Assembly: GCF_000158195.2 (NCBI RefSeq)
Contig: NZ_GL987991.1
Location: 54,455-118,454, forward strand
Origin: Fusobacterium mortiferum ATCC 9817
Lineage (GTDB): Bacteria > Fusobacteriota > Fusobacteriia > Fusobacteriales > Fusobacteriaceae
Reading direction: 5' to 3'
DNA length: 64,000 bases
The first letter of the stretch is position 1; the number at the start of each line of letters is the position of its first letter. The notes under the pieces were generated by a model. It saw only the letters and a list, made by a program, of their open reading frames with translations. It did not search any database and was not told the DNA's origin. The position numbers and the translations under genes are program-made. This document shows positions 22,701 to 41,440 of this stretch, piece after piece.

Positions 22701-22729
22701 TTGATTTTTTTATATTATTTTGTTATAAT
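22701..22729 (+). promoter_or_regulatory. Promoter of small-peptide element 1
   Basis: TTGATT (22701-22706), 17-base spacer, TATAAT (22724-22729), transcript start near 22736. The start region AAAGTACCTA begins a 5' stem-loop closed by GTACCTA/TAGGTAC. Confidence 0.75.
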
Positions 22730-22735
22730 TAAAGT

Positions 22736-23006
22736 ACCTAGAAACCCGTATAGGTACTTGATAAGTTGTTTGTTTAAGTTCAGAATGGAGGCTCTAATAT
22801 TTTTATTAGAGCTTTTATTCTCCCTTGAACATGGCAGACAAATAATTTATCAAGGAGATACAGAAATGACTGTAACAATTCAAAATCTAACTATGAATCT
22901 TGATGGTGGAGTAATTCTTCTAGGTGGATTACTCATTCTCATTATTGTATGGTTAGTGAGAAAGTACAGATAATTCTGACCTCATACCCTACGGGGTCTT
23001 TTTTAT
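22736..23006 (+). ncRNA. Structured mRNA of peptide element 1 (type I toxin-like)
   Basis: The 130-base leader folds strongly. It has a 5' stem-loop (GTACCTA/TAGGTAC) and a 17-bp helix between 22757-22773 and 22838-22854 (three G-U pairs at most) that runs into the AAGGAG site. An inner hairpin GCTCTAAT/ATTAGAGC lies within it. The 3' end is a terminator (ACCTCATACCCTACGGGGTC then T6). The 5' loop ACCCGTATAGG can also pair with CCTACGGGGT in the terminator, a 5'-3' contact like that of hok and aapA mRNAs. Two relatives lie at 31.6-31.9 and 41.1-41.4 kb. Confidence 0.55.
22866..22973 (+). CDS. 35-residue membrane peptide, element 1
   Basis: It begins MTVTIQNLTMNLDGGVILLG, continues with a hydrophobic helix (LLILIIVWLV) and ends RKYR. 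The ATG lies nine bases after AAGGAG, which is sequestered in a long leader helix. The N-x-D-G-G motif before the membrane helix is shared with the peptide at 31642-31746. Its size, single membrane span, basic tail and folded leader resemble type I toxins (TisB, Fst, AapA classes), but it is no family I recognise. The upstream open frame to 22701 is leader, not protein. Confidence 0.65.
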   Translation: MTVTIQNLTMNLDGGVILLGGLLILIIVWLVRKYR

Positions 23007-23106
23007 TTATGGCAGTTTTACAGTTCTGCCAACTGTTATTTGATTTTATCTCTCCAAAAAGCTATAATATGTTTGCGACTATATTTATAGAAAGGAGGTA
23101 AAATCA

Positions 23107-23385
23107 ATGATATTAAGAAAAGACAACTTGGATTCCTCACAAATAAAAGATATTGAGTATAATACCGAAAATCAAACTATGATTGTGAGATTTCAAGACC
23201 GTGTATTAAAAAGTGGTATAGTTAGAAAAGGAAAAAGATATTTATATAAAAATGTTCCACAAGAAATTTATGAAATAATTATTTCAGCTAAAACTAATCC
23301 TGAGTTTGAATTTTCTCATGGAAAGTGTTTTCATAAGTTAGTTAAAATTCATGAAGAATTATTTCCCTGCACTAAACTTGACTAA
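23107..23385 (+). CDS. KTSC-domain small protein
   Basis: This 92-residue protein resembles the KTSC domain (PF13619): 'LDSSQIKDIEYNTENQTMIVRFQDR', 'YLYKNVPQEIYEIIISAKTN' and a 'FSHGKCFHKLVKI' end. The family is small and widespread, thought to act with RNA- or DNA-processing enzymes. The ribosome site is AAAGGAGG. It converges on and overlaps by four bases the 58-residue gene on the other strand. Confidence 0.65.
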   Translation: MILRKDNLDSSQIKDIEYNTENQTMIVRFQDRVLKSGIVRKGKRYLYKNVPQEIYEIIISAKTNPEFEFSHGKCFHKLVKIHEELFPCTKLD

Positions 23386-23558
23386 TCTATAACCACTAAT
23401 ATAGTTGCTGGTCCTTCTAACTCAATAGCATCAGTTTTTAGGATCAGCTTCCATTTTTCATAAGGCTCTAAAAAATAAGTATTTACTCCACCTCGTTTAA
23501 TTAATTCATCATAAAGTTCTTTTGTTGAATAAGAACTTAGATTATTTTTATTTTTCAT
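23382..23558 (-). CDS. 58-residue phage protein, unknown function
   Basis: It begins MKNKNNLSSYSTKELYDELI, continues 'KRGGVNTYFLEPYEKW' and ends 'ELEGPATILVVID'. The ATG is at 23556-23558 behind TAAGGAG. The pattern of a short N-terminal helix followed by 'GPATILVV-D' occurs in small phage proteins of low-GC bacteria with no known role. It overlaps the KTSC gene tail to tail. Confidence 0.6.
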   Translation of the reverse strand: MKNKNNLSSYSTKELYDELIKRGGVNTYFLEPYEKWKLILKTDAIELEGPATILVVID

Positions 23559-23656
23559 TTAATCTCCTTACTAAAAATAAAAAAAAATTTATTAATAACA
23601 TATTTCTTGCCTTTATTCCTCCAATAATATATACTTTAGGTATGGAGGTTGATATA

Positions 23657-23839
23657 ATGACTTTATTTGAAAAATTCAAAGATAAAACACTTTTTATTAC
23701 AGTTCAAAATGGAACTTTGTTTCCTACTTATAAGGGAACTATCCTTTCTCAAGTAGAAGATTTCATAGAATTTAAAACTGAGAACAATACTATTTGGATA
23801 AACCTTAAATATATTGTTAAGTTTATAGTAGTGGAGTAG
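23657..23839 (+). CDS. 60-residue beta-rich small protein
   Basis: I start at the ATG at 23657 behind TATGGAGG. The frame upstream to 23522 has no ribosome site and overlaps the gene on the other strand. The sequence (FITVQNGTLFPTYKGTILSQVED ... TIWINLKYIVKFIVVE) looks like a small SH3/Sm-like barrel. A terminator follows directly. Function is unknown. Confidence 0.6.
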   Translation: MTLFEKFKDKTLFITVQNGTLFPTYKGTILSQVEDFIEFKTENNTIWINLKYIVKFIVVE

Positions 23840-23866
23840 AGAGCTTTTATAGCTCTCTATTTTAAT
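23838..23866 (+). terminator. Terminator after the 60-residue gene
   Basis: AGAGAGCT and AGCTCTCT form a stem with a short loop followed by ATTTTAATTT. It overlaps the stop codon. Confidence 0.7.
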
Positions 23867-24041
23867 TTGCTATTAAGATTAAATAATTTAATGAAACTAT
23901 AACAAAAGTTCCAATTATTCCTAAAATAAAAGAAATTAATAAAATAAATAATATTTTATTCGTTCTTTTTTTCTTTTTAATAGAAATTTCAAGCTTTTCT
24001 ATAGTTTTTTGATACTTAGTATTTTCTTTTTTATCTTCCAC
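23862..24041 (-). CDS. 59-residue single-pass membrane protein
   Basis: A GTG start at 24039-24041 lies behind AAAGGAGGAG. It encodes a charged N-terminal half (EDKKENTKYQKTIEKLEISI) and a C-terminal membrane helix (ILFILLISFILGIIGTFVIV). Small membrane proteins beside phage repressors often act in superinfection exclusion, which is inference. A perfect copy of the repressor operator (24052-24068) sits immediately upstream. Confidence 0.6.
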   Translation of the reverse strand: MEDKKENTKYQKTIEKLEISIKKKKRTNKILFILLISFILGIIGTFVIVSLNYLILIAN

Positions 24042-24051
24042 AGCTCCTCCT

Positions 24052-24068
24052 TTATACTTTTTGTATAA
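24052..24068. promoter_or_regulatory. Repressor operator, copy 1
   Basis: TTATAC-TTTTT-GTATAA is a perfect 6+6 inverted repeat with a five-base spacer. It matches the operators at 24281, 29575, 29609 and 29669 and lies between the Cro/XRE-like gene and the small membrane gene. Confidence 0.65.
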
Positions 24069-24071
24069 AAA

Positions 24072-24263
24072 TTATTCAAAAAAAATTGATTTATCTACTT
24101 TTATAAAATTTGAAATCAAATTTAACTGATTTTTAGAAAATAATATTTTTCCTTCTTCAAATTTCTTACATTTGTAACTAAAATTTTGTTTTGATAAACC
24201 TAATATACTTGCAACTTCTTTACAAGTTTTTCCTTGCTTTTTTATTATATTTTTTAAAATCAT
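24072..24263 (-). CDS. Small XRE-family (Cro-like) regulator
   Basis: This 63-residue protein starts at the ATG at 24261-24263 behind AGGTGA. The frame further upstream covers an operator and is discarded. It holds a helix-turn-helix: 'KTCKEVASILGLSKQNFSYKCKKF' (about residues 12-35). It is flanked on both sides by copies of the operator found at the CI-type gene 5 kb away. It probably competes for or is controlled by the same sites, like Cro, but it lies on the opposite side of the methylase/kinase cargo. Confidence 0.7.
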   Translation of the reverse strand: MILKNIIKKQGKTCKEVASILGLSKQNFSYKCKKFEEGKILFSKNQLNLISNFIKVDKSIFFE

Positions 24264-24280
24264 TTTATCACCTATAAAAA

Positions 24281-24297
24281 TTATACAAAAAGTATAA
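24281..24297. promoter_or_regulatory. Repressor operator, copy 2
   Basis: TTATAC-AAAAA-GTATAA, a perfect 6+6 inverted repeat. It lies in the divergent region between the XRE-like gene (minus) and the cytosine methylase (plus). Confidence 0.65.
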
Positions 24298-24421
24298 GAA
24301 AAGTCAAGATAATTTTTACAATTAAATATCAATAACATATAAAAAATTTTAAATTTTACTTTTTTTTTTAAATTTACTTGGTATAATATAAAGATAAATA
24401 GTTTTTTAAAAAGGAGGAAAT

Positions 24422-25645
24422 ATGAATTGCCTAGATTTATTTTCGGGTGCAGGGGGGCTAACAGAAGGTTTTGTAAGAGCTGGATATAATATTATTGCAC
24501 ATGTTGAAAAAGAATTTTCTGCTTCGTTAACTTTGAAAACAAGAATTGCATATCATTATTTAAAACAAACTAATCAATTAAAAATTTACTATAGTTATTT
24601 AAATGATGAAATTTCTAGAGAAAAATTATATTCTCATATTCCTTCTCAACTACTTGATAGTGTAATAAATGAAGAAATAAATGATGAAAGTATTAATGAC
24701 ATTTATAATAAAATAGATATTCTTAGAGGAAATAAAGAAATAGATATTATAATTGGAGGACCACCATGTCAAGCTTATTCACTTATAGGAAGAGCAGCTA
24801 GTAAATCTAAAATGGTAGGTGATTCTAGAAAATATTTATATAAGCAATATTTAAAGTTTTTGGAACGTTATAGACCAAAACTTTTTGTTTTTGAAAATGT
24901 AAGAGGTATGTTATCATCTAAAGATGAAAATGGAAATAATATATTTGAAAAAATAGTAATTGAAATGAAAGAGATTGGATATAATATTGATTATAAAATA
25001 TTAGATGCAAAAGATTTTGGTGTTCCACAATCAAGAAAAAGAGTAATTATAATAGGATGGAAAAATGAATTAAATTTTAAATATCCAAATTTTGAAACTA
25101 TAAAAAATGATATTACTATAAATCAATTATTTGCTGATTTACCAAAAATAAAAGCTGGAGAAAAAATTAATTTTAAAAAGATAGTTCCACAGATAGAAGT
25201 TTTATCAAAATTAAATTTATTAGATGATGATTTTAATATAATTTCTCAACATATATCTAGACCTAATAATATAAATGACTTAAAAATTTATAAAATAGCT
25301 GTGAATTTATTCAGTGAAGGGAAAACTTTAAAATATACGGATTTACCTTCTTCATTAATAAGTCATAAAAATTTAACTTCATTTTTAGATAGATTTAAGG
25401 TTGTTAATGGAAATGGAATAAGTCATACTATGGTTGCTCATATAGCTAAAGATGGACATTATTATATACACCCTGATATTAGACAAAATAGGTCGCTAAC
25501 CGTAAGAGAAGCTGCTAGAATTCAAACATTTCCTGATAGTTATTATTTTGAAAATTCTAGAACTGCAGCTTTTACTCAAATAGGTAATGCAGTTCCACCA
25601 TTAATGGCTAAAATAATAGCAGAAAAAATAAAAGAGGCTTTTTAA
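24422..25645 (+). CDS. C5-cytosine DNA methyltransferase
   Basis: This 407-residue enzyme has motif I 'DLFSGAGGLTEGF' (residues 5-17), catalytic motif IV 'GGPPCQAYS' with Cys116, motif VI 'FVFENVRGML', motif VIII 'QSRKRVIIIGW' and motif X 'QIGNAVPPLMAKIIAEKI'. The variable region between VIII and IX (about 215-330) sets target specificity, which cannot be read here. The ribosome site is AAGGAGG and a TATAAT lies near 24381. It converges on the kinase/response-regulator operon and shares its terminator. No restriction nuclease is recognisable, so the neighbouring operon may be the effector, or the enzyme may protect phage DNA. Confidence 0.92.
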   Translation: MNCLDLFSGAGGLTEGFVRAGYNIIAHVEKEFSASLTLKTRIAYHYLKQTNQLKIYYSYLNDEISREKLYSHIPSQLLDSVINEEINDESINDIYNKIDILRGNKEIDIIIGGPPCQAYSLIGRAASKSKMVGDSRKYLYKQYLKFLERYRPKLFVFENVRGMLSSKDENGNNIFEKIVIEMKEIGYNIDYKILDAKDFGVPQSRKRVIIIGWKNELNFKYPNFETIKNDITINQLFADLPKIKAGEKINFKKIVPQIEVLSKLNLLDDDFNIISQHISRPNNINDLKIYKIAVNLFSEGKTLKYTDLPSSLISHKNLTSFLDRFKVVNGNGISHTMVAHIAKDGHYYIHPDIRQNRSLTVREAARIQTFPDSYYFENSRTAAFTQIGNAVPPLMAKIIAEKIKEAF

Positions 25646-25655
25646 GCCTCTTATT
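25627..25655. terminator. Bidirectional terminator between methylase and response regulator
   Basis: AAGAGGCTT and AAGCCTCTT form a perfect stem that overlaps both convergent stop codons, with T-rich flanks on each strand. The shared terminator suggests the methylase and the operon have travelled together. Confidence 0.7.
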
Positions 25656-26691
25656 TATGAATTTCTGGGATTCCTTGTCTACCATAATATTGAGAAAAAT
25701 TAAAAATTATTTCTTTTAAAAATGTTTCATTCAAGCTACTTTCTCTGTCATAATATTCATTTATTTCAGTTATAGGTAGACATACTAAATCACTAAAATT
25801 AATTGCTTGTCCTTCTTCATTGTTTATTGGTAAATATTCATAATAATTTTTATAATTTTTAGATTGCAATAATTTTTTTATATTTTCTTTTTCTTTATTA
25901 TTAGGATTATTATTTTGATAGATATCATCTATACTTTCTATACCAACAATTAAGACAGAATCTACTTTTCTTTTTCCATTTGCTCTTACTTCTAAATCAC
26001 ATGCAGGAGTTAGAACAATTCTTTTTTTTCCACTGCTTTTTTCAATTAAAATATCTCCTGTGGTTAATTCCTTTTTTAATGGAGGAGTAAAATATATTTC
26101 ACATGGATGGTATTTAGGTGATAAATGTTTTAATTTTTCACTTATTATTGTTGCACAAAATCTTGACATAATATTTTCTTTTTCTACTGAGTCAAGTTCA
26201 TTGTTTTTTTGGAGATTTGTAACTAAATTTTCCGAATATTTTAAAAATATTTCATCCATTATTTTATCTAATATTCCTTTTCTATTTAAAATCTTTGTTA
26301 ATCCCGTGTCATATAACTTTAACAAATCATCAAGAATAGTAATAATGTCTACTTCTCCTCTAGTTATTTTTCTTAATAAAAGTTTTTTATCAGAAAGTTC
26401 TTCAATTTCTTCATATGCATCTGGTGTTCCTGATACAATATATATTGGAACTCTTTTTTCATTAAAAATTTTTTTTATAATTTCATTTCCACCAGCTTCT
26501 TCACCACTACCTAAATTTAAATCTACTATAACAGCATCAAAATCTTCTTCATTTACAGATTTAAGTCCATCTTCTTTGTTTTTTTTAATTATGGATGTTA
26601 TATTTTTATTATTCGTTTCATTATATCCCTGTATTTCTTCTTCATATATTTTACATGCTTCATCATCATCTTCTATTATTAATATTCTCAT
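25651..26691 (-). CDS. Response regulator with uncharacterised C-terminal domain
   Basis: This 346-residue protein has an N-terminal receiver domain: acidic pocket 'IIEDDDE' (residues 5-11), phosphorylatable Asp57 in 'VIVDLNLGSG', a Ser/Thr switch in 'PIYIVSGTPD', and a Lys near 105. The C-terminal part (about 140-346) is not a standard DNA-binding domain. It contains 'LTTGDILIEK' and 'KRIVLTPACDLEVR', a beta-rich segment with a conserved-looking T-P-x-C-D. The start directly follows the kinase stop (TAAATG), so the two are coupled. It is likely the effector of a phage-encoded two-component cargo; the output is unknown. Confidence 0.7.
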   Translation of the reverse strand: MRILIIEDDDEACKIYEEEIQGYNETNNKNITSIIKKNKEDGLKSVNEEDFDAVIVDLNLGSGEEAGGNEIIKKIFNEKRVPIYIVSGTPDAYEEIEELSDKKLLLRKITRGEVDIITILDDLLKLYDTGLTKILNRKGILDKIMDEIFLKYSENLVTNLQKNNELDSVEKENIMSRFCATIISEKLKHLSPKYHPCEIYFTPPLKKELTTGDILIEKSSGKKRIVLTPACDLEVRANGKRKVDSVLIVGIESIDDIYQNNNPNNKEKENIKKLLQSKNYKNYYEYLPINNEEGQAINFSDLVCLPITEINEYYDRESSLNETFLKEIIFNFSQYYGRQGIPEIHK

Positions 26692-28812
26692 TTATATTTC
26701 CTCCATTATTAAGTATGCTCCTTCAGAATAATTCATGATTTGTAACTGAAATCCATTTCTTTTTAAAGCTTCTCCAGCTATTGATAAACCTAATCCTGTT
26801 CCATTATTCTTTCTAGTAAAGCCAGGTTCAAATATAATTTTTGACTTTATATCGTCTTCTAAAATTCCAGGGCCACTATCTATTATTTCTATTTTTGCTT
26901 TATTATTTTTAGTTTTAAATAAATTTATTATTAATTTTTTAGGTTTTTCCGATTCGTTCATCCAATATAAACTATTTTCTAGTATATTTGTTAAAGCTGT
27001 TTGAATTTCAGAATCAACAACTATAGCAGAAATATCTTCAAGATTAGTTTCTAATTTTACTTCTTTAAATTCTGCTTCATATACAGCTAATGATTTCATT
27101 ATTGTTTCTTTTAAGTTTGTTTCTTTAGAATTTTGTCTTCTTTGACTTGATAACGGTTCTATTGATTTAAATAATTTAGCTATTTTATTAGTCTGTTCTT
27201 CAAATTCATTAGTTTTTTGTATAATTTTATTTCTAGACTCTTCTGATTGTGTTTGTAAAAATTTTTTAGTTTCTCTTTTTAAAAAATTACATCCATTTTT
27301 GAAAAAACTTATTGGTTTTCTTCCTTCATGTATTATTCTATTTACTATTTTTCCTAATGTTACATGCTTTTCATATTTTACAATTAAATCTTGAATTTTA
27401 GTTACATTTTTTAAATCTTCTTTTTCTTTTTCATCTATTATTTTTACTATTTTTTCTTGGGTATCTTCAGACAAATTAGAAGTTACTTTTTTCATATTTT
27501 CTCTAAATTTATCAAATTTTCCTAAATTATCAAATAAACTATTTTCGTGAGAATTTTCTTTATTTTCTTGTTTTTTATTTTGGAATTTTTCTATCTCTAA
27601 TTTAGATAATATTTCTAAAGTAATTATTTTTAAACCTTTAAAATTTTCATCTTCTTGTAATCCATCACGAGCACTTTTTTCAATTAAAAAAGTTTCATCA
27701 GATAAAGTAATTATTCCATTTATTTGACTATTACTAACTCTAAAAGTTGGATTTAAATATCTTCTTTTATTTAATTCAAGCCAATCATATCTTTCCTCTC
27801 CATATGGTCTTATTCTAAATCTATTTTTATAAATACTTATACCTGAAAGTTCATTTAGTAATTTTCTTACTTCTGCTTTTCCAAGATTTTCATTTTCTTT
27901 TTTCAACTCTTCATACATTGAAGATATTACTGATGGCTCTCTATTAAAAACTCTAAATTCTAAACTAAAAGGTCCAGGAAAGTTAGCACCATCTTTAGAT
28001 AAAATTTTTTCTGTTTCTTCTTTTGATATTTTTTCTTGCTTTAAAAGTTTGTTATTTTCTGAATAAATAGAATAATTTATTACCATATTTTCATCTATAT
28101 TTGCAATTATTTTATAATCATAATATTCAAATAAATCATATGACAAAATTTCAGTTTTTTCTGTTATTATCTTTGTTTCTTTATCATTAGAAGTATAAAT
28201 TTCAAAATTTTTAAAAGACAAAAAAACTTTAAATGTATCTTTTAAAGTAGTAACAGGAGATAATAATTTTCGCAATTCTTTTTCTAACTCTAATTTTTTA
28301 TTTTCACTCCAAATAGAATAATTTTTTTTCTTTATAATCAATTTTGTTCCATTTTTCTCACATGTTTTTTGAGTATTAATATCAAATTCAATTTCATCAA
28401 GATATTTATACTTTTTTATATTGTCCCAGTCTAGCTCTAAAGTTGTTTTTTCATTATCTTTAATTGTTTCTAATCTCAAGAAATTTCCTAAAATAGCTAC
28501 TGAATACCTTCCAAGACCTTTTTCACCAAGAACCCTTCTATTTTTTAATGGACTATATTTATTATTTTTTTTATAACTTGTTGCTGGAACCATCCAGTTA
28601 TCTTCTACAGTTTTTAAACTCATTCCATGCCCATCATCTTCTATTGTAATAATTAAATCTTCTCCATTTTTTTCTAGATTAATTATTACATTTTCTGCAT
28701 CTGCGTCATAAGAATTTTTTATTAATTCAACAATTGCTGATATTTCATCTATAATTAAATTTTTTCCAATTGAATCAATTATATTAGATGAAGGTCTAAT
28801 TTTTTTCTTCAT
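26692..28812 (-). CDS. Cytoplasmic double-GHKL kinase/ATPase
   Basis: This 706-residue protein has two ATP-binding GHKL modules. The first, at the N-terminus, is Hsp90/MORC-like: 'ELIKNSYDADAENV', 'IEDDGHGMS', 'GEKGLGRYS'. The second, at the C-terminus, is histidine-kinase-like: 'LTNILENSLYWMNES', 'EIIDSGPGI', 'NGTGLGLSIAGEAL'. Between them lies a coiled coil with an H-box-like 'IIHEGRKPISFF' that could be the phospho-acceptor. There is no membrane segment or signal peptide, so the signal is intracellular. It begins 24 bases after the repressor gene and is coupled to the response regulator. Similar MORC/GHKL proteins occur in restriction loci. Confidence 0.75.
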   Translation of the reverse strand: MKKKIRPSSNIIDSIGKNLIIDEISAIVELIKNSYDADAENVIINLEKNGEDLIITIEDDGHGMSLKTVEDNWMVPATSYKKNNKYSPLKNRRVLGEKGLGRYSVAILGNFLRLETIKDNEKTTLELDWDNIKKYKYLDEIEFDINTQKTCEKNGTKLIIKKKNYSIWSENKKLELEKELRKLLSPVTTLKDTFKVFLSFKNFEIYTSNDKETKIITEKTEILSYDLFEYYDYKIIANIDENMVINYSIYSENNKLLKQEKISKEETEKILSKDGANFPGPFSLEFRVFNREPSVISSMYEELKKENENLGKAEVRKLLNELSGISIYKNRFRIRPYGEERYDWLELNKRRYLNPTFRVSNSQINGIITLSDETFLIEKSARDGLQEDENFKGLKIITLEILSKLEIEKFQNKKQENKENSHENSLFDNLGKFDKFRENMKKVTSNLSEDTQEKIVKIIDEKEKEDLKNVTKIQDLIVKYEKHVTLGKIVNRIIHEGRKPISFFKNGCNFLKRETKKFLQTQSEESRNKIIQKTNEFEEQTNKIAKLFKSIEPLSSQRRQNSKETNLKETIMKSLAVYEAEFKEVKLETNLEDISAIVVDSEIQTALTNILENSLYWMNESEKPKKLIINLFKTKNNKAKIEIIDSGPGILEDDIKSKIIFEPGFTRKNNGTGLGLSIAGEALKRNGFQLQIMNYSEGAYLIMEEI

Positions 28813-28835
28813 AATTTAAATCTCCTTTAGATTAT

Positions 28836-29528
28836 TTATAAATTTCCTTCATAAATAAATTTTACTGCTCTACCCATAATTTTAAAGTTTTCTGCTTTAT
28901 TTTTTGAAACATAAATATCATCATATTTAGGATTTATACTTTTTAAAATAATTATTTTTAAATCAGTATTAAAATATATCCTTTTTATAAAAGTTTCTTC
29001 ATCTAGTTTTACTATATAAATTTTACCTTCTATATAGTCAGTTTGATAGGGATCAACTACTACAAAAGCTCCATCTTGAATTAATGGCTCCATAGAGTTT
29101 CCACAAACTTCTATTAAGTAACAATGCTCATGAAATCCATTTTTTCTAATTGTTTTCATATATAAATCTTCACAACAATTAATATAACCATTTCCTGCAC
29201 TTGCTTTTGCTTTTACTGGAACATTAATAAACTCTTCTTCTATGATAATTGCATTAGACTGAGTATTATTAATTTGAGTTTTTAATTTTTTTAGAGAATC
29301 AGGCATCTTATCTCTTGCTAAAATTTTTAAAACTTCTTCTTTTTCTTCGTTGGAAAAATTAAATTTTTTGAAAAAAGCTTCAATAAATTTATAAGACGGA
29401 CTCCTTTTTCCAGTAGTATAATGACTTATCAAACCAGTGGAATATCCAACTTCTTTTGCAAAATTTTCTATTTTGTATTTATTTTTATCAAGATAATCAC
29501 TTAAGTATTTTCCAAATTCATTAGACAT
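28836..29528 (-). CDS. CI-type repressor (XRE + S24 peptidase)
   Basis: This 230-residue protein starts at the ATG at 29526-29528 behind GGAGG. An N-terminal XRE helix-turn-helix lies in 'ENFAKEVGYSTGLISHYTTGKRSP' (about residues 21-44). The S24 self-cleavage domain has Ser145 in 'CGNSMEPLIQDG', Lys182 in 'ETFIKRIYF' and a likely Ala111-Gly112 cleavage site. This is a lambda CI/LexA-like lysogeny switch cut after DNA damage. Three operator copies lie in its upstream region, one inside the divergent early promoter. The kinase and response regulator follow in the same operon and should be expressed in lysogens. Confidence 0.9.
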   Translation of the reverse strand: MSNEFGKYLSDYLDKNKYKIENFAKEVGYSTGLISHYTTGKRSPSYKFIEAFFKKFNFSNEEKEEVLKILARDKMPDSLKKLKTQINNTQSNAIIIEEEFINVPVKAKASAGNGYINCCEDLYMKTIRKNGFHEHCYLIEVCGNSMEPLIQDGAFVVVDPYQTDYIEGKIYIVKLDEETFIKRIYFNTDLKIIILKSINPKYDDIYVSKNKAENFKIMGRAVKFIYEGNL

Positions 29529-29561
29529 AATTTCCTCCAGAAATTTTATTTCTATAATTAA

Positions 29562-29691: not shown

Positions 29692-29696
29692 AAAAT

Positions 29697-31602: not shown

Positions 31603-31911
31603 AATAATAAAAAAAGACCCCGTAGGGTATGAGGTAAGGAATTACTTATGATGTTTAATCCAAATTACAACAATGAAAACTATTCCAATTAAAAAAATAG
31701 TCCCGCCATCAAAGTTGATAATAGGATTGGAAATAATTATGTTCATTTCCTCAACCTCCTGAAGTGTTATATTCTCATATCTACAAGGCTGTTGACACCT
31801 TATAGACATGAAATAAGCTCCCACGGCGGAGTGAGAGCCTATTTCATCAACATTTTTAATAACACTTCAGTTATAAGTCCTACGGGCTAGGTACCTTATA
31901 TTAATAGTATA
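31603..31911 (-). ncRNA. Structured mRNA of peptide element 2 (type I toxin-like)
   Basis: A leader of about 155 bases starts near TAAGGTACCTAGCCCGTAGG. CTGAAGTGTTATT (plus 31858-31870) pairs with the complementary segment at plus 31759-31770, which abuts AGGAGG. Inside are TGTTGA/TCAACA and the hairpin GAAATA-GGCTCTCAC/GTGGGAGCTTATTTC. The last keeps the GGCTC...GAGCTT frame of element 1 while changing loop-proximal pairs on both arms. The 5' CCCGTAGG is exactly complementary to CCTACGGG in the terminator. The element is antisense to the early operon between YqaJ and RecT. Confidence 0.55.
31642..31746 (-). CDS. 34-residue membrane peptide, element 2
   Basis: It begins MNIIISNPIINFDGGTIFLI, with a hydrophobic helix (IGIVFIVVIWI) and a basic KHHK end. 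It shares the N-x-D-G-G motif, the position of Trp at the helix end and the basic tail with the peptide at 22866-22973 despite low overall identity, which implies selection on the protein. The ATG is nine bases past AGGAGG. The longer frame to 31824 is leader. Likely a membrane-acting toxin, not proven. Confidence 0.65.
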   Translation of the reverse strand: MNIIISNPIINFDGGTIFLIGIVFIVVIWIKHHK

Positions 31912-31934
31912 CCAAAATAATAAGAAAAAGTCAA
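31906..31934 (-). promoter_or_regulatory. Promoter of peptide element 2
   Basis: On the minus strand TTGACT (31929-31934), 17-base spacer with TTATTATTTTGG, then TATACT (31906-31911). The spacer tail resembles TATTATTTTGT of elements 1 and 3. Confidence 0.7.
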
Positions 31935-33953: not shown

Positions 33954-33966
33954 ATAATGCAATTAA

Positions 33967-34000: not shown

Positions 34001-34044
34001 CTAAAAACAAATTTATGGAGTTAGTGGAGTATAATAAAAATTAC

Positions 34045-34097: not shown

Positions 34098-34104
34098 TGA
34101 GGAG

Positions 34105-34365: not shown

Positions 34366-34408
34366 GCATTAACTCCATAAAATCAAATGTTTTTAGGAGG
34401 ATACAGTT

Positions 34409-35149: not shown

Positions 35150-35202
35150 CTATTAATCCTCAGTATTAATTTACTGGGGATTTTTTTATTGGAGGAAATA
35201 GA

Positions 35203-35397
35203 GTGAAATTTAATATAGATAACTTAGAAAAGTATAGAAATAATATCTTGAAAAAGAAAAGAGGATGTAGATTTGATAATAATATATCAATATATTTTAT
35301 GGCTGGAACTTGGATATTTGCTGTAAGAAATAGAATAAGAATTAGAGAACAAAACTGGGAAGTATTCAAAGGAAAGGTTATTAAGGGGGAATATTAA
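35203..35397 (+). CDS. 64-residue basic protein, unknown function
   Basis: A GTG start behind TTGGAGG encodes a basic alpha/beta protein ('MKFNIDNLEKYRNNILKKKRG', then 'MAGTWIFAVRNRIRIREQNW'). The stop overlaps the next start. A short hairpin (ATCCTCAGTA/TTACTGGGGAT, 35156-35180) lies just upstream. Function unknown. Confidence 0.5.
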   Translation: MKFNIDNLEKYRNNILKKKRGCRFDNNISIYFMAGTWIFAVRNRIRIREQNWEVFKGKVIKGEY

Positions 35398-35888
35398 TGG
35401 CTAAGTTTGATAATGTAAAAGAAAATAACAGAGTTTGGAGTGTTCAACATGGTTGGGGAACAGTTACTGATTTTTCAGAAGGATATGTTCATTGGTTTTT
35501 CCAAGTTAAGTTTGATAATGGCTATGACCAATGGTATTTTCCTGATGGTAGAGCTGAAAAAAAAGATGCTAACCCTACACTATTTTGGAACGAGATTAAA
35601 CTACCTGCTGAAGAAGAGGACAAAAAACCTTTTGACTTGGTGGAGTTTTTGAAAAAGAATTTAGTTTCTAAAGAATTTAAAGAAGATGACGATAATATAT
35701 TTTTGAATTATGATTATATAGAAAAACGTATAGATTGGGATTGCAATGAAATAGTTGAAATAATGGGAACTATTTATTTTGAAGATGTAGAATTTGAGAA
35801 ATTAAATATTCTAGTCAATGAAATGAATGATAGAGGAGTTACACCAGAGCAACTCAAAGAAGCATATAAAAAATTAGGGTGGTTATAA
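35397..35888 (+). CDS. 163-residue phage protein with small N-terminal barrel
   Basis: The N-terminal part (residues 8-60, 'ENNRVWSVQHGWGTVTDF', 'VHWFFQVKFDNGYDQWYFPDGR') resembles small KOW/SH3-like domains found in hypothetical phage proteins. The C-terminal half is acidic helical and ends 'LKEAYKKLGWL'. It overlaps the previous stop (TAATGG). No enzyme motif; function unknown. Confidence 0.6.
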   Translation: MAKFDNVKENNRVWSVQHGWGTVTDFSEGYVHWFFQVKFDNGYDQWYFPDGRAEKKDANPTLFWNEIKLPAEEEDKKPFDLVEFLKKNLVSKEFKEDDDNIFLNYDYIEKRIDWDCNEIVEIMGTIYFEDVEFEKLNILVNEMNDRGVTPEQLKEAYKKLGWL

Positions 35889-36314
35889 ATGACTTTAAAA
35901 GAGAAAAGAAAAAAGTATTTAGAGGAAAAGTTGAAAAATAGAGAAATTGATATAAAGTTTTTTATAGCTAGTATTTGTGAGGAGATAAAAAATAAAAAAG
36001 AACATATAGAAGATGAATACATAAAAACAGTAGAAGAAAATTTTCGTGTATCTATCTATGACAAAGATATAAAAAGTGTTGATGATGATGTTTTGGATAG
36101 ATTGGAAAAAGCAGTTAATTCTATTGATTTTGGAGAATATTACATAATATTTAATAATTTTAATGATAGCGGAAGATTATACGAAGTTTATTTTTCTATA
36201 AATTTTAAATCTGAAGATAAAGAAAATATCATATCTCAAAATAAGAAAAAATCTTTATTCGATAAAATTAGGAGTTGGTTATATGAGCAAACAAGCAAAG
36301 AAAAGAGAAATTAA
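35889..36314 (+). CDS. 141-residue hypothetical phage protein
   Basis: It starts directly after the previous stop. The N-terminus is a basic helix ('KEKRKKYLEEKLKNREIDIKFF'), then mixed segments, and the C-terminus 'KSLFDKIRSWLYEQTSKEKRN' is amphipathic and basic. It overlaps the next gene by about 30 bases. No family is recognised. Confidence 0.55.
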   Translation: MTLKEKRKKYLEEKLKNREIDIKFFIASICEEIKNKKEHIEDEYIKTVEENFRVSIYDKDIKSVDDDVLDRLEKAVNSIDFGEYYIIFNNFNDSGRLYEVYFSINFKSEDKENIISQNKKKSLFDKIRSWLYEQTSKEKRN

Positions 36315-36528
36315 TAAGTATAGAGTTGAAATAGCTAGATTATATTTCATAATAGCAGAACAACAGTTCCTTAATGAAAGTTGGATTGATAAAAATAATG
36401 AATTAAGAATACTTATAAGACAGCATAGAGAAAGAGAGCAAAGACTTCAAAGAGAGAATGAACAACTAAAAGCTGAGAACTATAGCTTAAAACATAGAGG
36501 ATTCTTCAAAAGATTACTTGGAGCTTAA
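36283..36528 (+). CDS. 81-residue coiled-coil protein
   Basis: It starts behind TTAGGAG inside the end of the preceding gene. Residues about 40-70 are a strong coiled coil ('RQHREREQRLQRENEQLKAENYSL'). The basic ends suggest DNA or membrane association. Unknown function. Confidence 0.55.
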   Translation: MSKQAKKREINKYRVEIARLYFIIAEQQFLNESWIDKNNELRILIRQHREREQRLQRENEQLKAENYSLKHRGFFKRLLGA

Positions 36529-36530
36529 TT

Positions 36531-36746
36531 ATGAGAATTAGAAAATCAGGAATAGTATATAAAGCTTGTACTAAAAAGAGGGAGAAAAGGCTCTCTCTTC
36601 TCCAAGAACTATGTAGAATAAATTATAAAATAGATAATAAAACTTTAATAGAAAGATTAGGTATATCAAAGACAGAGTTTTATAGGAATTTTAAATCTTT
36701 AGCTGATAAATATAGAGAAAATAATAAATGTGAAGCATTATTTTAA
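36531..36746 (+). CDS. 71-residue helix-turn-helix protein
   Basis: A basic N-terminus is followed by a helix-turn-helix-like 'KTLIERLGISKTEFYRNFKSLADKYR' (about residues 38-63), in the style of small phage regulators. It is the last gene before the integrase module and ends in a weak stem (TTTCCCA/TGGGAAA). Confidence 0.55.
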   Translation: MRIRKSGIVYKACTKKREKRLSLLQELCRINYKIDNKTLIERLGISKTEFYRNFKSLADKYRENNKCEALF

Positions 36747-36881
36747 AATTTCCCAATTTTATTAAAAATGGGAAAATAAAAGCCATATTCTTAATCATAT
36801 AAAAATATAAAAAGTCTTAAAATAAATAATTAATCATTTGAAAAAATAATTTTTAATATTATAATTATTAAGGAGGAAACT

Positions 36882-36992
36882 ATGAAAATAAAAGTCATTT
36901 TTAATGAAGATAATTATGAAGCTGATTATTATAGAAAAAAATTAATATCTAATATAAAAGAGGTAGAGGATAATGAGAGATTCAAAGAGTAA
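36882..36992 (+). CDS. 36-residue peptide overlapping the integrase
   Basis: It begins MKIKVIFNEDNYEADYYRKK and ends 'EVEDNERFKE'. The ATG follows AAGGAGG. The stop lies inside the integrase gene, so it probably couples integrase translation. It might be an excision or control factor (inference from position). Confidence 0.5.
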   Translation: MKIKVIFNEDNYEADYYRKKLISNIKEVEDNERFKE

Positions 36993-38406
36993 GACTGTTA
37001 TTATATACAATAGAGTATCTACCATAATGCAAGATAAAAATGAATCTTTAACAGAGCAAACTGATGAATGTATTCGTTATTGTAAAACTAATGGATATGA
37101 AATATATAAAATACTCAAAGATGTAAAGAGTGGAACTAAAGATGATAGGGCAGGATATTTAGAGTTAAAGAAACATATCAGGAGAAGAGATTTTGATATA
37201 TTAGTAGTCCTAGAAACTTCACGTATAGCTAGAAAAATGAAAGAGCTAGTTTTATTCTTTAGTCTTTTAAATGAAAATAATATAGAATATATCTCAATCA
37301 GAGAACCTAACTATAACACTACTACTCCAGATGGAAAATTTGCTATGAATATAAGACTAGGTCTTATTCAATTTGAAAGAGATAATACAGCTGAAAGGGT
37401 AACTGATAGATTATATTTTAAAGCTAGTAAAGGACAATGGGTAAATGGTAAACCACCTATTGGATATAAATTAGTAAATAAAAGATTAGAAATTGACGAG
37501 GAAAAAGCTGAAATAGTAAAAAATATTTATGAAGATTTCTTAAATGGATATAGTCTTAATCAAATTAATAATAAATTACAGTTTTCTTGGGGAAGTAAAC
37601 AAGTAAAGAGAATACTAACTAATCCTACTTATAAAGGGTATATAAGATATGGAACTAGAAGTAATAGAAAGAAAAATAATAGAGAAGCTTTTATAGTAAA
37701 AGGTTGGCATGAAGCTATTATTCCTGAAGATAAATGGGAAAAAGTCCAAGAGATGTATAAAAGCTTAAATAGAAAAGCTTCTAATACAAAGCCAACATTA
37801 CTTAGTGGATTATTAAAATGTAAAGAATGTGGAAATAACTATATAAGGAAAAGAGGAGGATCTTATGATAAAAATCTTTATTATGGTTGTAATCTTAATA
37901 ATTTAAGATATTCTGATAAATTTTTCTATAAAGATATTCCAGAATGTAGTTCTGCAACTATAAAGGGAGATTTACTTGAGAAAGCTGTAATAGATACTTT
38001 GAAAAAACAAATTAATGATTTGAATTTTAACGATATTGAGATTGATAAAAAAAGACAAGTAAATATAAAACAGATAGATAGCTCAATAAATAAATTCAAG
38101 AATAGGTTAAATAAGATTTATGAACTTTATATAGAAGATGAGATTCCAAAAGATAAATACTTAAAAGATAAGAAAGATATAGAAGCAAGAATAATAAGCT
38201 TAGAAAAGCAAAAAAAGAGCTTTGGAGAAATAGAAGTAGAAAAATCTAATAATGAAATGATACAAGAGTATTTTTCTAAAATAGATTTATCTAATATTGA
38301 AGAAGCCAATAGAATCCTTAAAATAATAGTAAATAAAATAGTGGTATATAAAAAGAAAAAAACTCCAAAAGATGATTTTGAAGTTGAAATTTATCTAAAT
38401 ATTTAG
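36973..38406 (+). CDS. int: Large serine recombinase (phage integrase)
   Basis: This 477-residue protein has a resolvase catalytic domain with nucleophile Ser16 in 'IIYNRVSTIMQDKNES', Arg residues in 'VLETSRIARKMKEL' and 'MNIRLGLIQFERDNTAERV', a recombinase domain ('KGQWVNGKPPIGYKLVNKRL', 'NPTYKGYIRYGTR'), a zinc ribbon ('LLKCKECGNNYIRKRG') and a C-terminal coiled coil (about 370-430). It catalyses prophage insertion. Its 3' end faces the right prophage boundary, and a palindromic candidate att site follows within 110 bases. Confidence 0.93.
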   Translation: MRDSKSKTVIIYNRVSTIMQDKNESLTEQTDECIRYCKTNGYEIYKILKDVKSGTKDDRAGYLELKKHIRRRDFDILVVLETSRIARKMKELVLFFSLLNENNIEYISIREPNYNTTTPDGKFAMNIRLGLIQFERDNTAERVTDRLYFKASKGQWVNGKPPIGYKLVNKRLEIDEEKAEIVKNIYEDFLNGYSLNQINNKLQFSWGSKQVKRILTNPTYKGYIRYGTRSNRKKNNREAFIVKGWHEAIIPEDKWEKVQEMYKSLNRKASNTKPTLLSGLLKCKECGNNYIRKRGGSYDKNLYYGCNLNNLRYSDKFFYKDIPECSSATIKGDLLEKAVIDTLKKQINDLNFNDIEIDKKRQVNIKQIDSSINKFKNRLNKIYELYIEDEIPKDKYLKDKKDIEARIISLEKQKKSFGEIEVEKSNNEMIQEYFSKIDLSNIEEANRILKIIVNKIVVYKKKKTPKDDFEVEIYLNI

Positions 38407-38427
38407 CTCTACACCAAGAATGTAGAG

Positions 38428-38545
38428 CTATTTTTTATATTATTATAAAGAGTGTTCTAAAATAGAAGAAAATAAAAACATACACATAAAGACGCACGTA
38501 GATACGTGTGTCCCAATAAATTTATTTATCTTTCTATTTTCCATT
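38428..38545 (-). pseudogene. 5' fragment of a gene disrupted at the prophage end
   Basis: On the minus strand a TATAAT near 38590-38600, an AAGGAG and an ATG near 38544 open a 33-codon frame (MENRKINKFIGTHVSTCVFM ...), which ends soon after crossing the palindrome at 38491-38512. Good expression signals with such a short product suggest a host gene cut by integration. The rest would lie at the left prophage end outside the window. Inference. Confidence 0.4.
38491..38512. other. Candidate attR core (serine integrase site)
   Basis: GACGCACG (38491-38498) and CGTGTGTC (38505-38512) form an inverted repeat with one mismatch around TAGATA. It is an isolated GC-rich palindrome in very AT-rich DNA, 85 bases after the integrase stop. 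Serine integrase att sites are imperfect palindromes with a central dinucleotide crossover, so this fits. Confirmation needs the matching sequence at the left end. Confidence 0.45.
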
Positions 38546-38797
38546 AAATAATTCTCCTTAATTTCTCTTCTTAGTATCTTATACTAATTATATCATAAAT
38601 TAATAAATAAATAAATTAGAATTATTCTTTAAAATATTTTTAAATAATTTATAGAATAGTGGAAGAAGGAAAGGTTAAAGTTTAAATATGAGTAGCCAAA
38701 TAAAAAAAAGAAAGAAAATATATTAAAATTTACTTTTTTTATATTTTAAATTATAGTATAATATAATAATAAATATAATATAGGAGGTTTTTATAAA

Positions 38798-40030
38798 ATG
38801 GCTCAATATGAAAGTTTAGAAAAATTACATTTTAAAGGAGAAAATGTAGTTGAGGAATATCAAAAAAGAATTGAGAATTGTTGTACTTATAATACTGAAT
38901 TAAAAATTTATCCTATATTAAGAGGAGAAAGAGTAGTAAAAGAGCAATATTCTTTATTCTGTTTACCTATAAACGAAATTAATCTTCTCCAAGAAAAAAT
39001 ATTTTTAAATAGTAAGGAGATTATGGAATTAGATTCAGAGTTACCAGCTGCTGCAAAGTTTGCTTGTATCAATGATATTATGACAAATGAAATTACTAAA
39101 ACTAATGGAATTGAAGGAGTACATTCAACAAAAAAAGAGATATATGAGAGTATGGATCAAAAGAAAACTACTCGTTACTCTGGTATTGTTAATAAATATA
39201 CTCAGATTATATTAAATAATATTGAAAACATTGATTCTCCAGAACAGATAAGAAAAATGTATGATGATATATTTTCAGAGGATATTTTAAAAAATCCAGA
39301 AAATAAATTAGATGGAACTTTATTTAGAAAAGGGAGAATAAATGTTTCAAATGGAGCTAGTAATATACATAGTGGAGACCCTTCAGAAAATACTATAATA
39401 GAGCATATTAGCGACTTGATTAAATTTATGAATAGAAAGGATATCCCATCTTTATTAAAAGCTTCTATTGTTCACTATTATTTTGAATATATTCACCCAT
39501 TTTATGATGGAAATGGAAGATTTGGAAGATTTCTTTTCTCTATGTATTTAGCAAGAAAAGTAGATATTTATACAGGTTTATCTCTTTCTTATTCTATATT
39601 TGAAGATAGAAAAAAATATGCTGAACTTTTCTTAAATACTTCAAAAGTAAAAAATTATGGAGAAGTAACATTTTTTGTAATAGGAATGTTAAATTTCATT
39701 GTTAATGGACAAGAAAGTATTATACAGATGCTTAAAGATAAGATATTAAAACTTAACTATGCAGAGAAGTATATAGATAGTATAGAAACTTCTTATAGTC
39801 TTTCAGAGATTGAATGTAATATATTATTTATCTATATTCAAAACTATATTTTTGCCAAAGAAAATCCATTACCTGATAAAGAATTATTAAAATATGTAAA
39901 AGGAATAAAAAGTATTCAAACTTTAAGACGTCATCTAGACAATTTAACAACTTTAGATTTGATTACTTTAGTTTCTAAAAAACCTTTAATAAGAACTATT
40001 AGTAATACTATTAAGGAAGTATTGGATTAG
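38798..40030 (+). CDS. Fic-family AMP transferase
   Basis: This 410-residue protein has the Fic core 'HPFYDGNGRFGRF' with catalytic His233, and an N-terminal inhibitory helix 'TNGIEG' (Thr102-Glu106-Gly107, the (S/T)xxxE(G/N) motif), making it a self-inhibited class II Fic. A winged-helix-like C-terminus ('KSIQTLRRHLDNLTTLDLITLV') suggests DNA binding, as in other Fic/DOC-HTH proteins. It normally AMPylates a protein target. It stands alone between the prophage end and BREX remnants, behind AGGAGG, with its own terminator. Confidence 0.9.
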   Translation: MAQYESLEKLHFKGENVVEEYQKRIENCCTYNTELKIYPILRGERVVKEQYSLFCLPINEINLLQEKIFLNSKEIMELDSELPAAAKFACINDIMTNEITKTNGIEGVHSTKKEIYESMDQKKTTRYSGIVNKYTQIILNNIENIDSPEQIRKMYDDIFSEDILKNPENKLDGTLFRKGRINVSNGASNIHSGDPSENTIIEHISDLIKFMNRKDIPSLLKASIVHYYFEYIHPFYDGNGRFGRFLFSMYLARKVDIYTGLSLSYSIFEDRKKYAELFLNTSKVKNYGEVTFFVIGMLNFIVNGQESIIQMLKDKILKLNYAEKYIDSIETSYSLSEIECNILFIYIQNYIFAKENPLPDKELLKYVKGIKSIQTLRRHLDNLTTLDLITLVSKKPLIRTISNTIKEVLD

Positions 40031-40044
40031 AATAATATAAAAAA

Positions 40045-40075
40045 TCCTCAGTAATATTCTACTGGGGATTTTTTA
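40045..40075 (+). terminator. Terminator of the fic gene
   Basis: AATCCTCAGTA and TACTGGGGATT form a stem with one mismatch/wobble, followed by six T. Confidence 0.8.
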
Positions 40076-40111
40076 TATTATAAATTATCTCTCTAATCTA
40101 AAATTTATTTT

Positions 40112-40520
40112 TTAATCTATCCTGAAAGCTCTGTAATAGTGATTATCCTTAAATCCAAAAACTCTTAAATCAGTAAGTAATAGTATATTTTCCTGGAAAA
40201 AATAGAAGAACTTTTGTCTCATTAAAGATAACTTGTAAATTATTTAGAAGAGCGTGTGTTCTAACAAGTGGGAAAATTTTCCCTACTTCTGTTATAATTA
40301 CAAAATTTTTATCCTTTGATTTTTCTTTAAAATAATTGCATATAACTTCCATATTAAAACTTTTCTTAAGTTTTTCATAAAGAATTTTTGCCTTCTTCTC
40401 TCCTCCATTTTGAAAACAGATTCAAATATCTCATCATTTTTTAAACTTTCTACCAATAGTTCAAATAAATCTATCTCAATAGCTTTTAATCTAGCATCAT
40501 CTTTAAGGCAGGAAGAAGTA
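40112..40520 (-). pseudogene. brxB: Remnant of BREX brxB (DUF1788)
   Basis: Minus-strand fragments in shifting frames line up with the BrxB family. 'DDARLKAIEIDLFELLVESL' and 'FKMEERR' come first, then after a frameshift 'AKILYEKLKKSFNMEVICNY', 'FVIITEVGKIFPLVRTHALL', 'NNLQVIF' and 'VLLFFPGKY', then after another frameshift 'DLRVFGFKDNHYYRAFRID' and a stop. The VGxxxPLxRxHxLLNNLQ and FPGxY ... LRxFG ... NYYRAF blocks are BrxB hallmarks. At least two frameshifts and loss of the N-terminus make it dead. Confidence 0.7.
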
Positions 40521-40566
40521 GATTTTTTATTGAAAAAGTGTAGAAATACTAATAAAATAGGTAATT

Positions 40567-41056
40567 ATTATAGATTACATAAGAGAAACTTTTGAAAAAA
40601 ATAAAAAGTTAGAAGAGATTACTCAACGAAGAAAAGGTCTAGTAACAGGGGATAATGATTATTTTACTAAAATTTTGTCTGAAATAAATTATAAAAAAAT
40701 TGACTTTTTAATTTTAAATCGTGAACAATATGTAGTTTCTGAAAAAATGGTTTCTCTGCTCTAATATATTTATAGATATGAAAAAATAGTTGAGAACTGA
40801 ATATCTACTTTCTTATCAAGATAAACTAGAGAACTTAAGAGCTTTTTATGAGAGAATAACTTTTGATGATGGTGCTTCTGCTAAAGAAAAGAAACAAGCT
40901 GAAAAATCTTTAAAAGAGTTAGATGCAATGTTGAAAGAGTTAAGAGATTATGCTAATGAGATTAAGCATATTGCTGAATTAAAAATTGATCTTGATTTAG
41001 ATGATGGAGTTAAGGTTAACTATGAGAAATTTGATAAGATGTTGAAGAAGACATAA
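40567..41056 (+). pseudogene. pglX: Remnant of BREX pglX methylase
   Basis: Plus-strand coding remains in two frames. The first reads 'EEITQRRKGLVTGDND' (the GLxTGDN block of PglX-type adenine methylases) and 'KKIDFLILNREQYVVSEKMV' to a stop at 40764. The second (40790-41056) reads 'YLLSYQDKLENLRAFYERI', a charged coiled coil, and 'IDLDLDDGVKVNYEKFDKML', the typical PglX C-terminus. The catalytic NPPY region is gone. It lies head to head with the brxB remnant, unlike the collinear order of an intact BREX operon, so the island was rearranged as well as deleted. Confidence 0.65.
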
Positions 41057-41067
41057 GTATATGGGAT

Positions 41068-41440
41068 TTGACTTTTTGATATTATTTTGTTATAATTAAA
41101 GTACCTAGAAACCCATATGGGTAACTTGCAAAGTTATTTGTTATCAAGTTCAGAATATTAGCCCTAATTTCGATTGGGGCTTTTATTCTGAACTTGAACA
41201 AGGTAGAAACCAATATTTTAATAGGAGGTACAGAAATGACTGTAACAATTCAAACAATAAGTTTGAGGTAGCACAGAAAATAAACTTCTGTGTCTTAATA
41301 ATTATAGTCGTTCTCTGAACTCCTTAATTATTAGAATGGTGGAGTAATTCTTCTAGGTGTATTACTTATTCTCATTATTGTATGGTTAGTGAGAAAGTAC
41401 AGATAATTCTGACCTCATACCCTACAGGGTCTTTTTTTTA
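41068..41440 (+). pseudogene. Broken copy of the peptide element (element 3)
   Basis: The promoter TTGACT (41068-41073), 17 bases, TATAAT (41091-41096), the AAAGTACCTAG start, a perfect inner hairpin (AAGTTCAGAATA/TATTCTGAACTT with AGCCC/GGGGCT inside) and the terminator are kept. The peptide starts MTVTIQ at 41236 as in element 1, but a foreign stretch of about 75 bases (about 41256-41331) replaces codons 7-13 and introduces a stop after 11 codons. The hydrophobic helix and the end of the element (TGGTTAGTGAGAAAGTACAG) are nearly identical to element 1. Confidence 0.7.

Follow-up and report, generated by a model that had tools for sequence, protein, structure and literature searches.

Known systems and the present element

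AapA mRNAs carry metastable hairpins that mask the Shine-Dalgarno (SD) sequence, together with a contact between their 5′ and 3′ ends (sections of PMC6733600), and TimP and TisB combine a hidden ribosome-binding site with a leader pseudoknot (PMC11228461 and PMC7708055). Type I toxin-antitoxin (TA) systems are reportedly limited to Proteobacteria, Firmicutes and Tenericutes, to which a first case from cyanobacteria was added in 2025 (an excerpt of PMC12390103). Here we describe an RNA-plus-peptide element of which three copies lie in a 64,000-nucleotide (nt) stretch of Fusobacterium mortiferum ATCC 9817 (contig NZ_GL987991.1; this whole stretch is called the window, and element coordinates refer to it). 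The family is well supported as real, and its mRNA appears, from the sequence, to be organised for the same mode of action as a type I toxin mRNA. We consider it probable (roughly 0.68) that every element is complete in itself as a gene, that its small membrane peptide is toxic (growth-inhibiting), and that its mRNA is translationally locked from the moment it is made. Membership of the type I class is not established, because an antitoxin was not found and toxicity is only inferred.

The Ldr/Rdl and Fst (par) systems (PF13940; NF033608) share with this element small single-helix membrane peptides and a structured mRNA, and the tandem chromosomal copies of Ldr (a portion of PMC4147584) recur here. 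In contrast to them, the present family encodes mostly an unrelated, DGG-type peptide, its Ldr and Fst scores stay below the cut-offs, and a general Rdl-like antisense promoter was not found in 83 copies. The hok/Sok and aapA/IsoA mRNAs are likewise inert when made, mask the SD and form a 5′–3′ contact (same sections of PMC6733600), but here it is chiefly a long-range stem, whose upstream arm is copy-specific, that masks the SD, and no antisense RNA was found. The tisB/IstR-1 and timP/TimR systems, compared by their description in part of PMC11228461, have a sequestered ribosome-binding site and a pseudoknot in the 5′ untranslated region, as here, whereas no small RNA gene was found near the present elements, whose many paralogs carry copy-specific locks. 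The Clostridioides difficile type I toxins (NF047374) also lie on mobile elements (a section of PMC7699646) and match the present peptides weakly (E 0.017 and 0.037; 15.5 and 14.4 of 60 bits), but antitoxin RNAs are present there. The element was not described in any title or abstract found by a literature search, which had most subscription papers outside its scope; the part of the fusobacterial transcriptome paper PMC11005410 that was covered has the word "toxin" once and "small protein" never, and does not describe the element. A type I toxin-like mRNA is apparently new to Fusobacteriota.

A leader with a covarying, putative lock stem

From 5′ to 3′, the RNA consists of a 5′ hairpin, the 5′ arm of a stem named P1, pseudoknot strand a, an internal hairpin (hp1), a second hairpin with strand a′ in its loop, and the P1 3′ arm, followed by the SD, the start codon, the peptide and the terminator. 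A typical copy has one promoter. This anatomy, like the covariation, P1 diversity, distribution and Ldr-like association described below, is read from sequence.

Nineteen leaders were sorted into form A (10) and form B (9) of the internal module and aligned, giving two covariance models, each of which matched 20 of 61 Fusobacteriaceae genomes (E ≤0.01). The two tables (70 and 90 rows) were reduced by hand to 103 places, leaving out rows present in both, palindromic matches on the reverse strand and partial matches (10 partials were read separately). A start-codon candidate was present at 87 of these places, and 83 copies were kept; those dropped were G043:C12:48871, G004:C8:4138, G059:C9:18611 and G030:C4:58636, in the last of which the script had picked a wrong start codon. 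The 83 parsed copies lie in 22 of the 61 genomes and, by genus labels, in 7 of 14 genera, with a maximum of 14 copies per genome. Covarying homologues, for which a covariance-model search had been suggested in an earlier, sequence-only reading of this DNA, were thus found, and mostly encode a DGG-type membrane peptide. That reading had counted three copies, too few for the window's genome, which has 12 parsed copies.

The form A model, run on 98 Fusobacteriota genomes, matched 17 of them at E ≤0.001. None of the 37 genomes outside Fusobacteriaceae matched this model, the only one used there, under stricter filters with which weak matches can be lost. Regular expressions classed 42 cores as A-like and 40 as B-like. 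Exact core patterns matched only one uncultured genome of Cetobacterium, a genus of Fusobacteriaceae (genome_contigs, where near records may be omitted), and one viral contig. Near-identical units were found in tandem arrays. All 18 matches of one peptide search stand behind the leader. Another peptide search gave 9 matches in the window's genome at E ≤1.

P1 comprises 12–19 base pairs (bp) in 79 of the 83 copies (median 15 pairs). In 75 copies, its 3′ arm extends at least to the first base of the GGAGG-like core; sequence and covariation together point to a translationally occluded primary transcript. When arms were taken from fixed windows, with the helix not consulted, the median duplex energy was −19.0 kcal/mol for cognate and −5.6 kcal/mol for non-cognate arms (n = 83), and the cognate partner ranked best in its own row for 72 of 83 copies. 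The first 12 columns of P1 were 97.2% paired in those 79 copies where P1 has at least 12 pairs, compared with 52.3% for shuffled partners, the arms behind the former value having been selected by pairing, unlike the fixed-window arms. The pseudoknot helix also varies: double changes occurred in five of its six pairs among nine form-B leaders, where sliding the partner by one column lowered whole-structure pairing from 96% to 42–45%. More than 25 different a/a′ sequences were listed by script across the family, which is not a clean count, as one row was empty and hp1 arms were taken in for at least 6 of the 83 copies.

The 5′ hairpin and the terminator covary as well. Cognate duplexes between them had a median of −17.4 compared with −14.5 for non-cognate ones, and 38 of 81 cognates fell in the best tenth. 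The two loops match in many copies (GTA/TAC, GCA/TGC, GAA/TTC, ATAA/TTAT) and are mismatched in others. The 5′–3′ contact first noticed in elements 1 and 2 is supported across the family, and on sequence evidence it is a long-distance pairing of the hok/aapA kind. RNAalifold alone also pairs the 5′ UACC with a GGUA that overlaps the SD.

Covariation within the internal hairpin had initially been taken as the main evidence for the element. This was ruled out, since 10 of 16 form-B hp1 pairs are invariant among the nine leaders, and the pseudoknot and P1 vary more. The sequence of hp1 is in fact conserved, with GCTTTTATTCTG present in 35 of the 83 elements and in 11 genomes. A conserved hp1 beside a P1 of free sequence recalls riboswitches in which the core is fixed and P1 can vary. 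The peptide could accordingly be a harmless small membrane protein behind a riboswitch-like, thermosensing or protein-controlled leader, with the hp1/pseudoknot core as the sensor. We regard this as quite improbable, given that the window gave 0 Rfam matches at gathering score, that the elements of six loci compared at E ≤1 gave none either, that the core has two forms, and that 2 of 12 open reading frames (ORFs) are broken in the window's genome; tandem arrays and Ldr-like members would also be unusual for a metabolic sensor. The sole match over the cut-off in the six loci was a thiamine pyrophosphate (TPP) riboswitch standing away from the element (near one G001 copy, L034 707-806, − strand; 72.6 bits against a cut-off of 54.3). 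Two matches below the cut-off, Thr_leader overlapping one element (24.5 of 55 bits) and Tombus_5, were taken as chance.

The three elements in the window

The features of the elements are listed below; P1 arms are labelled x (5′) and y (3′) in element 1.

Element 1
22701..22729, + strand: promoter TTGATT-17-TATAAT (promoter scanner)
22734..22757, + strand: 5′ hairpin GTACCTA...TAGGTAC, complementary to its own terminator
22757..22775, + strand: P1 5′ arm (x)
22778..22783, + strand: pseudoknot strand a, GTTCAG (sequence reading and family-wide listing)
22782..22821, + strand: hp1, form A, with terminator-like U-tract (no terminator call by the scanner)
22825..22830, + strand: pseudoknot strand a′, TTGAAC (sequence reading and family-wide listing)
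22836..22854, + strand: P1 3′ arm (y), extending into the SD
22852..22858, + strand: SD AAGGAGA
22866..22973, + strand: peptide MTVTIQNLTMNLDGGVILLGGLLILIIVWLVRKYR
22978..23005, + strand: terminator (no scanner call)

Element 2
31906..31934, − strand: promoter TTGACT-17-TATACT (promoter scanner)
31879..31891, − strand: 5′ hairpin CCTAGCCCGTAGG, complementary to its own terminator
31859..31870, − strand: P1 5′ arm CTGAAGTGTTAT
31847..31852, − strand: pseudoknot strand a, TGTTGA
31808..31847, − strand: hp1, form B (no terminator call by the scanner)
31790..31795, − strand: pseudoknot strand a′, TCAACA, within the loop of the second hairpin
31759..31770, − strand: P1 3′ arm ATAACACTTCAG
31755..31760, − strand: SD AGGAGG
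31642..31746, − strand: peptide MNIIISNPIINFDGGTIFLIGIVFIVVIWIKHHK
31609..31635, − strand: terminator (no scanner call)

Element 3
41068..41096, + strand: promoter TTGACT-17-TATAAT (promoter scanner)
41098..41235, + strand: leader, form A, with hp1 retained and P1 gone
41160-41181, + strand: hp1, listed as terminator-like by the scanner
41236..41405, + strand: broken peptide gene, its N- and C-terminal parts split by a stop-bearing insert
41411..41439, + strand: terminator (no scanner call)

The internal module is thus of form A in elements 1 and 3 and of form B in element 2. The scanner returned all three promoters where they had been read by eye, starting at 22701 (+), 31934 (−) and 41068 (+). 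The shared terminator string, too, was recovered as an exact match in each element, and it occurs eight times genome-wide at no more than 2 mismatches, compared with 0 for a reversed-pattern control; as terminators, all three are called by reading an inverted repeat followed by a T-run, and the scanner, which requires at least 5 stem pairs, gives none. The leaders fold much more stably than their dinucleotide shuffles (z −7.6, −7.1 and −8.0 for elements 1–3); for each leader, 0 of 200 shuffles folded as well.

A membrane peptide of 34–35 amino acids had been ascribed to all three copies. This is correct for elements 1 (35 amino acids, NLDGG) and 2 (34 amino acids, NFDGG), both hydrophobic, and fails for element 3. 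There, the frame reads MTVTIQTISLR-stop (11 residues), then a stop-containing insert, then NGGVILLGVLLILIIVWLVRKYR, and the P1 stem on the SD side is down to 3 bp. Because its ORF is interrupted and its P1 stem is lost, element 3 is a decayed copy; elements 1 and 2 are intact, instead of the three first proposed. By eye, the insert that breaks the ORF (window ~41253-41336) contains the self-complementary stretches CACAGAA/TTCTGTG and AATAATTA/TAATTATT. Broken ORFs occur in 2 of the 12 copies of the window's genome. At G000:C8:600857-600934 (L008), a one-base deletion shifts the peptide frame, and the leader and P1 are intact.

The encoded peptides

The copies encode 81 peptides of 24–38 amino acids, 77 of them distinct; at least three (G003:517454, G002:3957626 and G057:C3:120562) seem, by eye, to be truncated or to carry a frameshift. 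Small and hydrophobic, they have a hydrophobic core in 80 of 81 cases (Kyte-Doolittle, 15-residue window ≥1.6) and a net positive C-terminal end in 67. By regular expression, 74 of the 83 copies are DGG-like and 7 Ldr-like, and 2 further copies are broken.

Four of the five Ldr-like peptides scanned matched the Pfam Ldr_toxin model, with E values of 2.2e-5, 6.7e-4, 6.9e-5 and 0.019. Nine matches to the Ldr model were obtained in 62 genomes. The five in short frames all stand directly behind this leader; the other four, in frames of 510–519 amino acids, were taken as chance. By regular expression, the same leader precedes Ldr/Fst-like peptides in 7 copies, which supports the toxin reading and agrees with the likeness to type I toxins proposed at the outset.

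P1 changes faster than synonymous codons

Counts on P1 rest on 79 copies (at least 12 pairs) or 80 copies (at least 9 pairs). The first 12-mer of P1 is distinct in 75 of the 79 copies, and is held in common by one same-genome pair (window element 1 and G000:C5:225767) and three different-genome pairs. The decayed, dropped copy G059:C9:18611 has the same P1 3′ arm as G059:C9:20063.

Divergence of P1 was compared with that of synonymous codons in pairs with ORFs of equal length, amino-acid difference ≤25% and synonymous difference ≤0.3. In 44 same-genome pairs, which are non-independent, P1 differed at 527 of 1052 positions (50%) and synonymous codons at 143 of 1107 (13%). Tandem copies in G004:C15 differed at 10 of 24 P1 positions compared with 0 of 33 synonymous codons. 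With the same cut, 13 different-genome pairs differed at 150 of 312 P1 positions and 37 of 359 synonymous codons. The fast change of P1, as read from these alignments, is therefore not confined to paralogs. Two ortholog-like different-genome pairs have identical P1. Gene conversion of the surroundings of P1 could contribute to the contrast.

Within genomes, cross-pairing between arms alone reached −12 kcal/mol or lower in 5 of 532 ordered pairs, compared with 77 of 80 cognate pairs. With longer, fixed windows, the corresponding numbers were 29 of 578 and 76 of 83.

Search for an antitoxin

Antisense promoters were scanned for in the 83 copies with a sigma-70-type matrix built from the family's own sense promoters. 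The best antisense scores had a median of 4.1, compared with 5.4 for shuffled sequences and 17.9 for the sense promoters. A score of at least 8 was reached in 10 of 83 copies, at least 10 in 3 and at least 14 in none; mononucleotide shuffles reached 8 in 20.7% and 10 in 7.0%. The earlier reading had seen no convincing antitoxin promoter inside elements 1 and 2, and this lack holds as a rule for the 83 copies scanned, with two paralog groups as a possible exception. Six of the ten copies scoring at least 8 have their site 81–87 nt past the start codon; three are G001 paralogs and three are G004 paralogs:

C1:1588897, 1589261 and 1734032 (G001): antisense promoter-like sites, best score 12.7, TGGACT-16-TATAAT
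C7:11880, C15:961 and C8:3791 (G004): antisense promoter-like sites, best score 12.4

By its position, this is where an IsoA-like promoter could be. A cis-antisense antitoxin as a general feature is rejected for sigma-70 promoters only, and the six-copy site stays a candidate.

An antitoxin encoded in the flanks, in the style of IstR or TimR, was looked for in as much as 1.5 kilobases to the left and right of 79 copies. At no more than 2 mismatches, 20 matches to P1 arms were obtained where 18 were expected, which is chance level. Some of the 20 fall in further copies of the element: the decayed G059:C9:18611 accounts for an exact match, and an ORF-less unit of G047:C20 for another match. No conserved companion gene or sequence was found in the flanks, where common 12-mers are mainly pieces of other element copies.

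These results bear on a classical type I arrangement, in which some or all copies would also make an antitoxin RNA, cis-antisense or divergent, that escaped the scans, for example because its promoter is weak or not of the sigma-70 type. The peptides, the structured mRNA, the 5′–3′ contact, the tandem paralogs and the Ldr-like members all fit such a system, and a copy-specific P1 is what copy-specific antisense pairing would need. The shared place of the six sites raises its odds slightly. We nevertheless hold it to be unlikely, as antisense scores of 8 and 10 are rarer than in shuffles, none reaches 14, P1-like flank segments are at chance level and a companion sequence was not found.

Five genomes contain ORF-less units made up of a promoter, the P1 5′ arm, strand a and hp1; they stand in tandem or alone, and the tandem ones sometimes lie upstream of a full copy:

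L110, L111, L114, L116, L117, L124 (G047) and L102 (G059): ORF-less units
L028, L059 (G004), L070, L083 (G038) and L084 (G044): ORF-less units

They are either decay products or stand-alone small RNAs. As cognate antitoxins they were rejected: 13 were tested, 3 of them from genomes lacking a parsed toxin copy, and among the remaining 10 only 2 matched. For each of these two, the strongest pairing was with the toxin copy next to it (−13.3 and −11.0 kcal/mol).

Such units would fit a TA system run from one promoter. Attenuation at hp1 would yield a short leader RNA (5′ hairpin, P1 5′ arm, a and hp1) as the antitoxin, capping the P1 3′ arm or a′ of the processed mRNA, and read-through would yield the cis-locked toxin mRNA. 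P1 would then be a specificity code, renewed after duplication, that prevents cross-neutralisation within a genome. In 82 of 83 copies, at least 5 T were counted within the 8 nt that follow hp1, and attenuation at hp1 is therefore possible as judged from the sequence, but these counts are maxima chosen in AT-rich DNA. The hp1 of element 3 is listed as terminator-like, whereas those of elements 1 and 2 have no such call. The distinct P1 of paralogs, as a rule, and the two units that pair with their neighbour fit a one-promoter system; against it, only 2 of 10 units match a P1 of their own genome beyond background, cis pairing normally beats trans pairing, and P1 diverges also between genomes (the 150 of 312 sites above), hence independently of sharing a cell. 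We consider a one-promoter system doubtful, to the same degree as the classical one.

Prophage setting

The window contains a prophage, and elements 1 and 2 are inside it. Window proteins scanned include a phage tape measure, a minor head/portal protein and a terminase. Element 2 lies between YqaJ and RecT genes. A serine integrase gene (36973-38403) marks the prophage edge and is followed by a Fic-domain gene (38798-40030); element 3 lies past the integrase and adjoins the Fic gene.

A copy with a MIKFEFNFNHNQIEGG-type peptide was seen on the IMG/VR contig IMGVR_UViG_2562617095_000001 (L127 1375-1672). In a comparison of element 1 with phage and plasmid records, no real match was found, a single 23-nt phage match having E 0.09. 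A clustered regularly interspaced short palindromic repeats (CRISPR) spacer in L055 (G057:C25, array 1277-2375) matches, at 37 of 37 bases, the form-B hp1 of a copy of the element in the same genome, its target being L035 (G057:C22) 1551-1587. This match may be read as immunity against a mobile copy, as self-targeting, or as regulation in the style of a CRISPR RNA. L055 has a second CRISPR array at 96-740.

The position of elements 1 and 2 among phage genes, the viral copy and the spacer would also suit a lysis or superinfection peptide acting at the membrane in the phage cycle and not as an addiction toxin. We think this very unlikely: a second, narrow scan with a form-B pattern matched no viral contig, and lysis genes would not normally be expected to occur as near-identical units in tandem arrays.

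Proposed mechanism

In the reading that we favour, of a self-contained toxin gene with a locked mRNA, the toxicity, folding order, opening of the lock, biological role and any antitoxin are what we infer. The P1 5′ arm would stay single-stranded while RNA polymerase progresses, and hp1 and the pseudoknot would form next. The emerging P1 3′ arm would then be captured by the 5′ arm, covering the first bases of the SD. At termination, the 5′ hairpin would pair with the terminator and close the molecule, and the peptide would be made only once the lock is opened or cut. Copies in prophages and tandem arrays may serve as maintenance or addiction modules. P1 diversifies between paralogs, which would give each copy, as a rule, its own lock.

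Several results weigh against this reading. The antisense scores fell below those of shuffles and the flank matches stayed at chance level. All Ldr, Fst and C. difficile toxin matches lie below the curated cut-offs: the best Ldr scores were 24.9 bits (peptide scan) and 25.1 bits (genome search) against 27 bits (PF13940), and the best Fst score was 15.2 against 26 bits (NF033608). Seven DGG-type peptides were scanned, and all stayed below the Pfam and NCBIfam cut-offs; their best match was phrog_10303 (E 0.0058), to which no function is assigned there. In addition, P1 is predicted to be strong, and the sequence suggests no evident mechanism for opening it.

Meaning for the family

The covariance models can be used to find these genes in further fusobacterial genomes. 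The locks outpace nearby synonymous codons yet stay paired, which makes the divergence of RNA-control specificities testable, with dozens of natural lock pairs available. The family would add a phylum to the type I systems, provided that toxicity and an antitoxin were shown.

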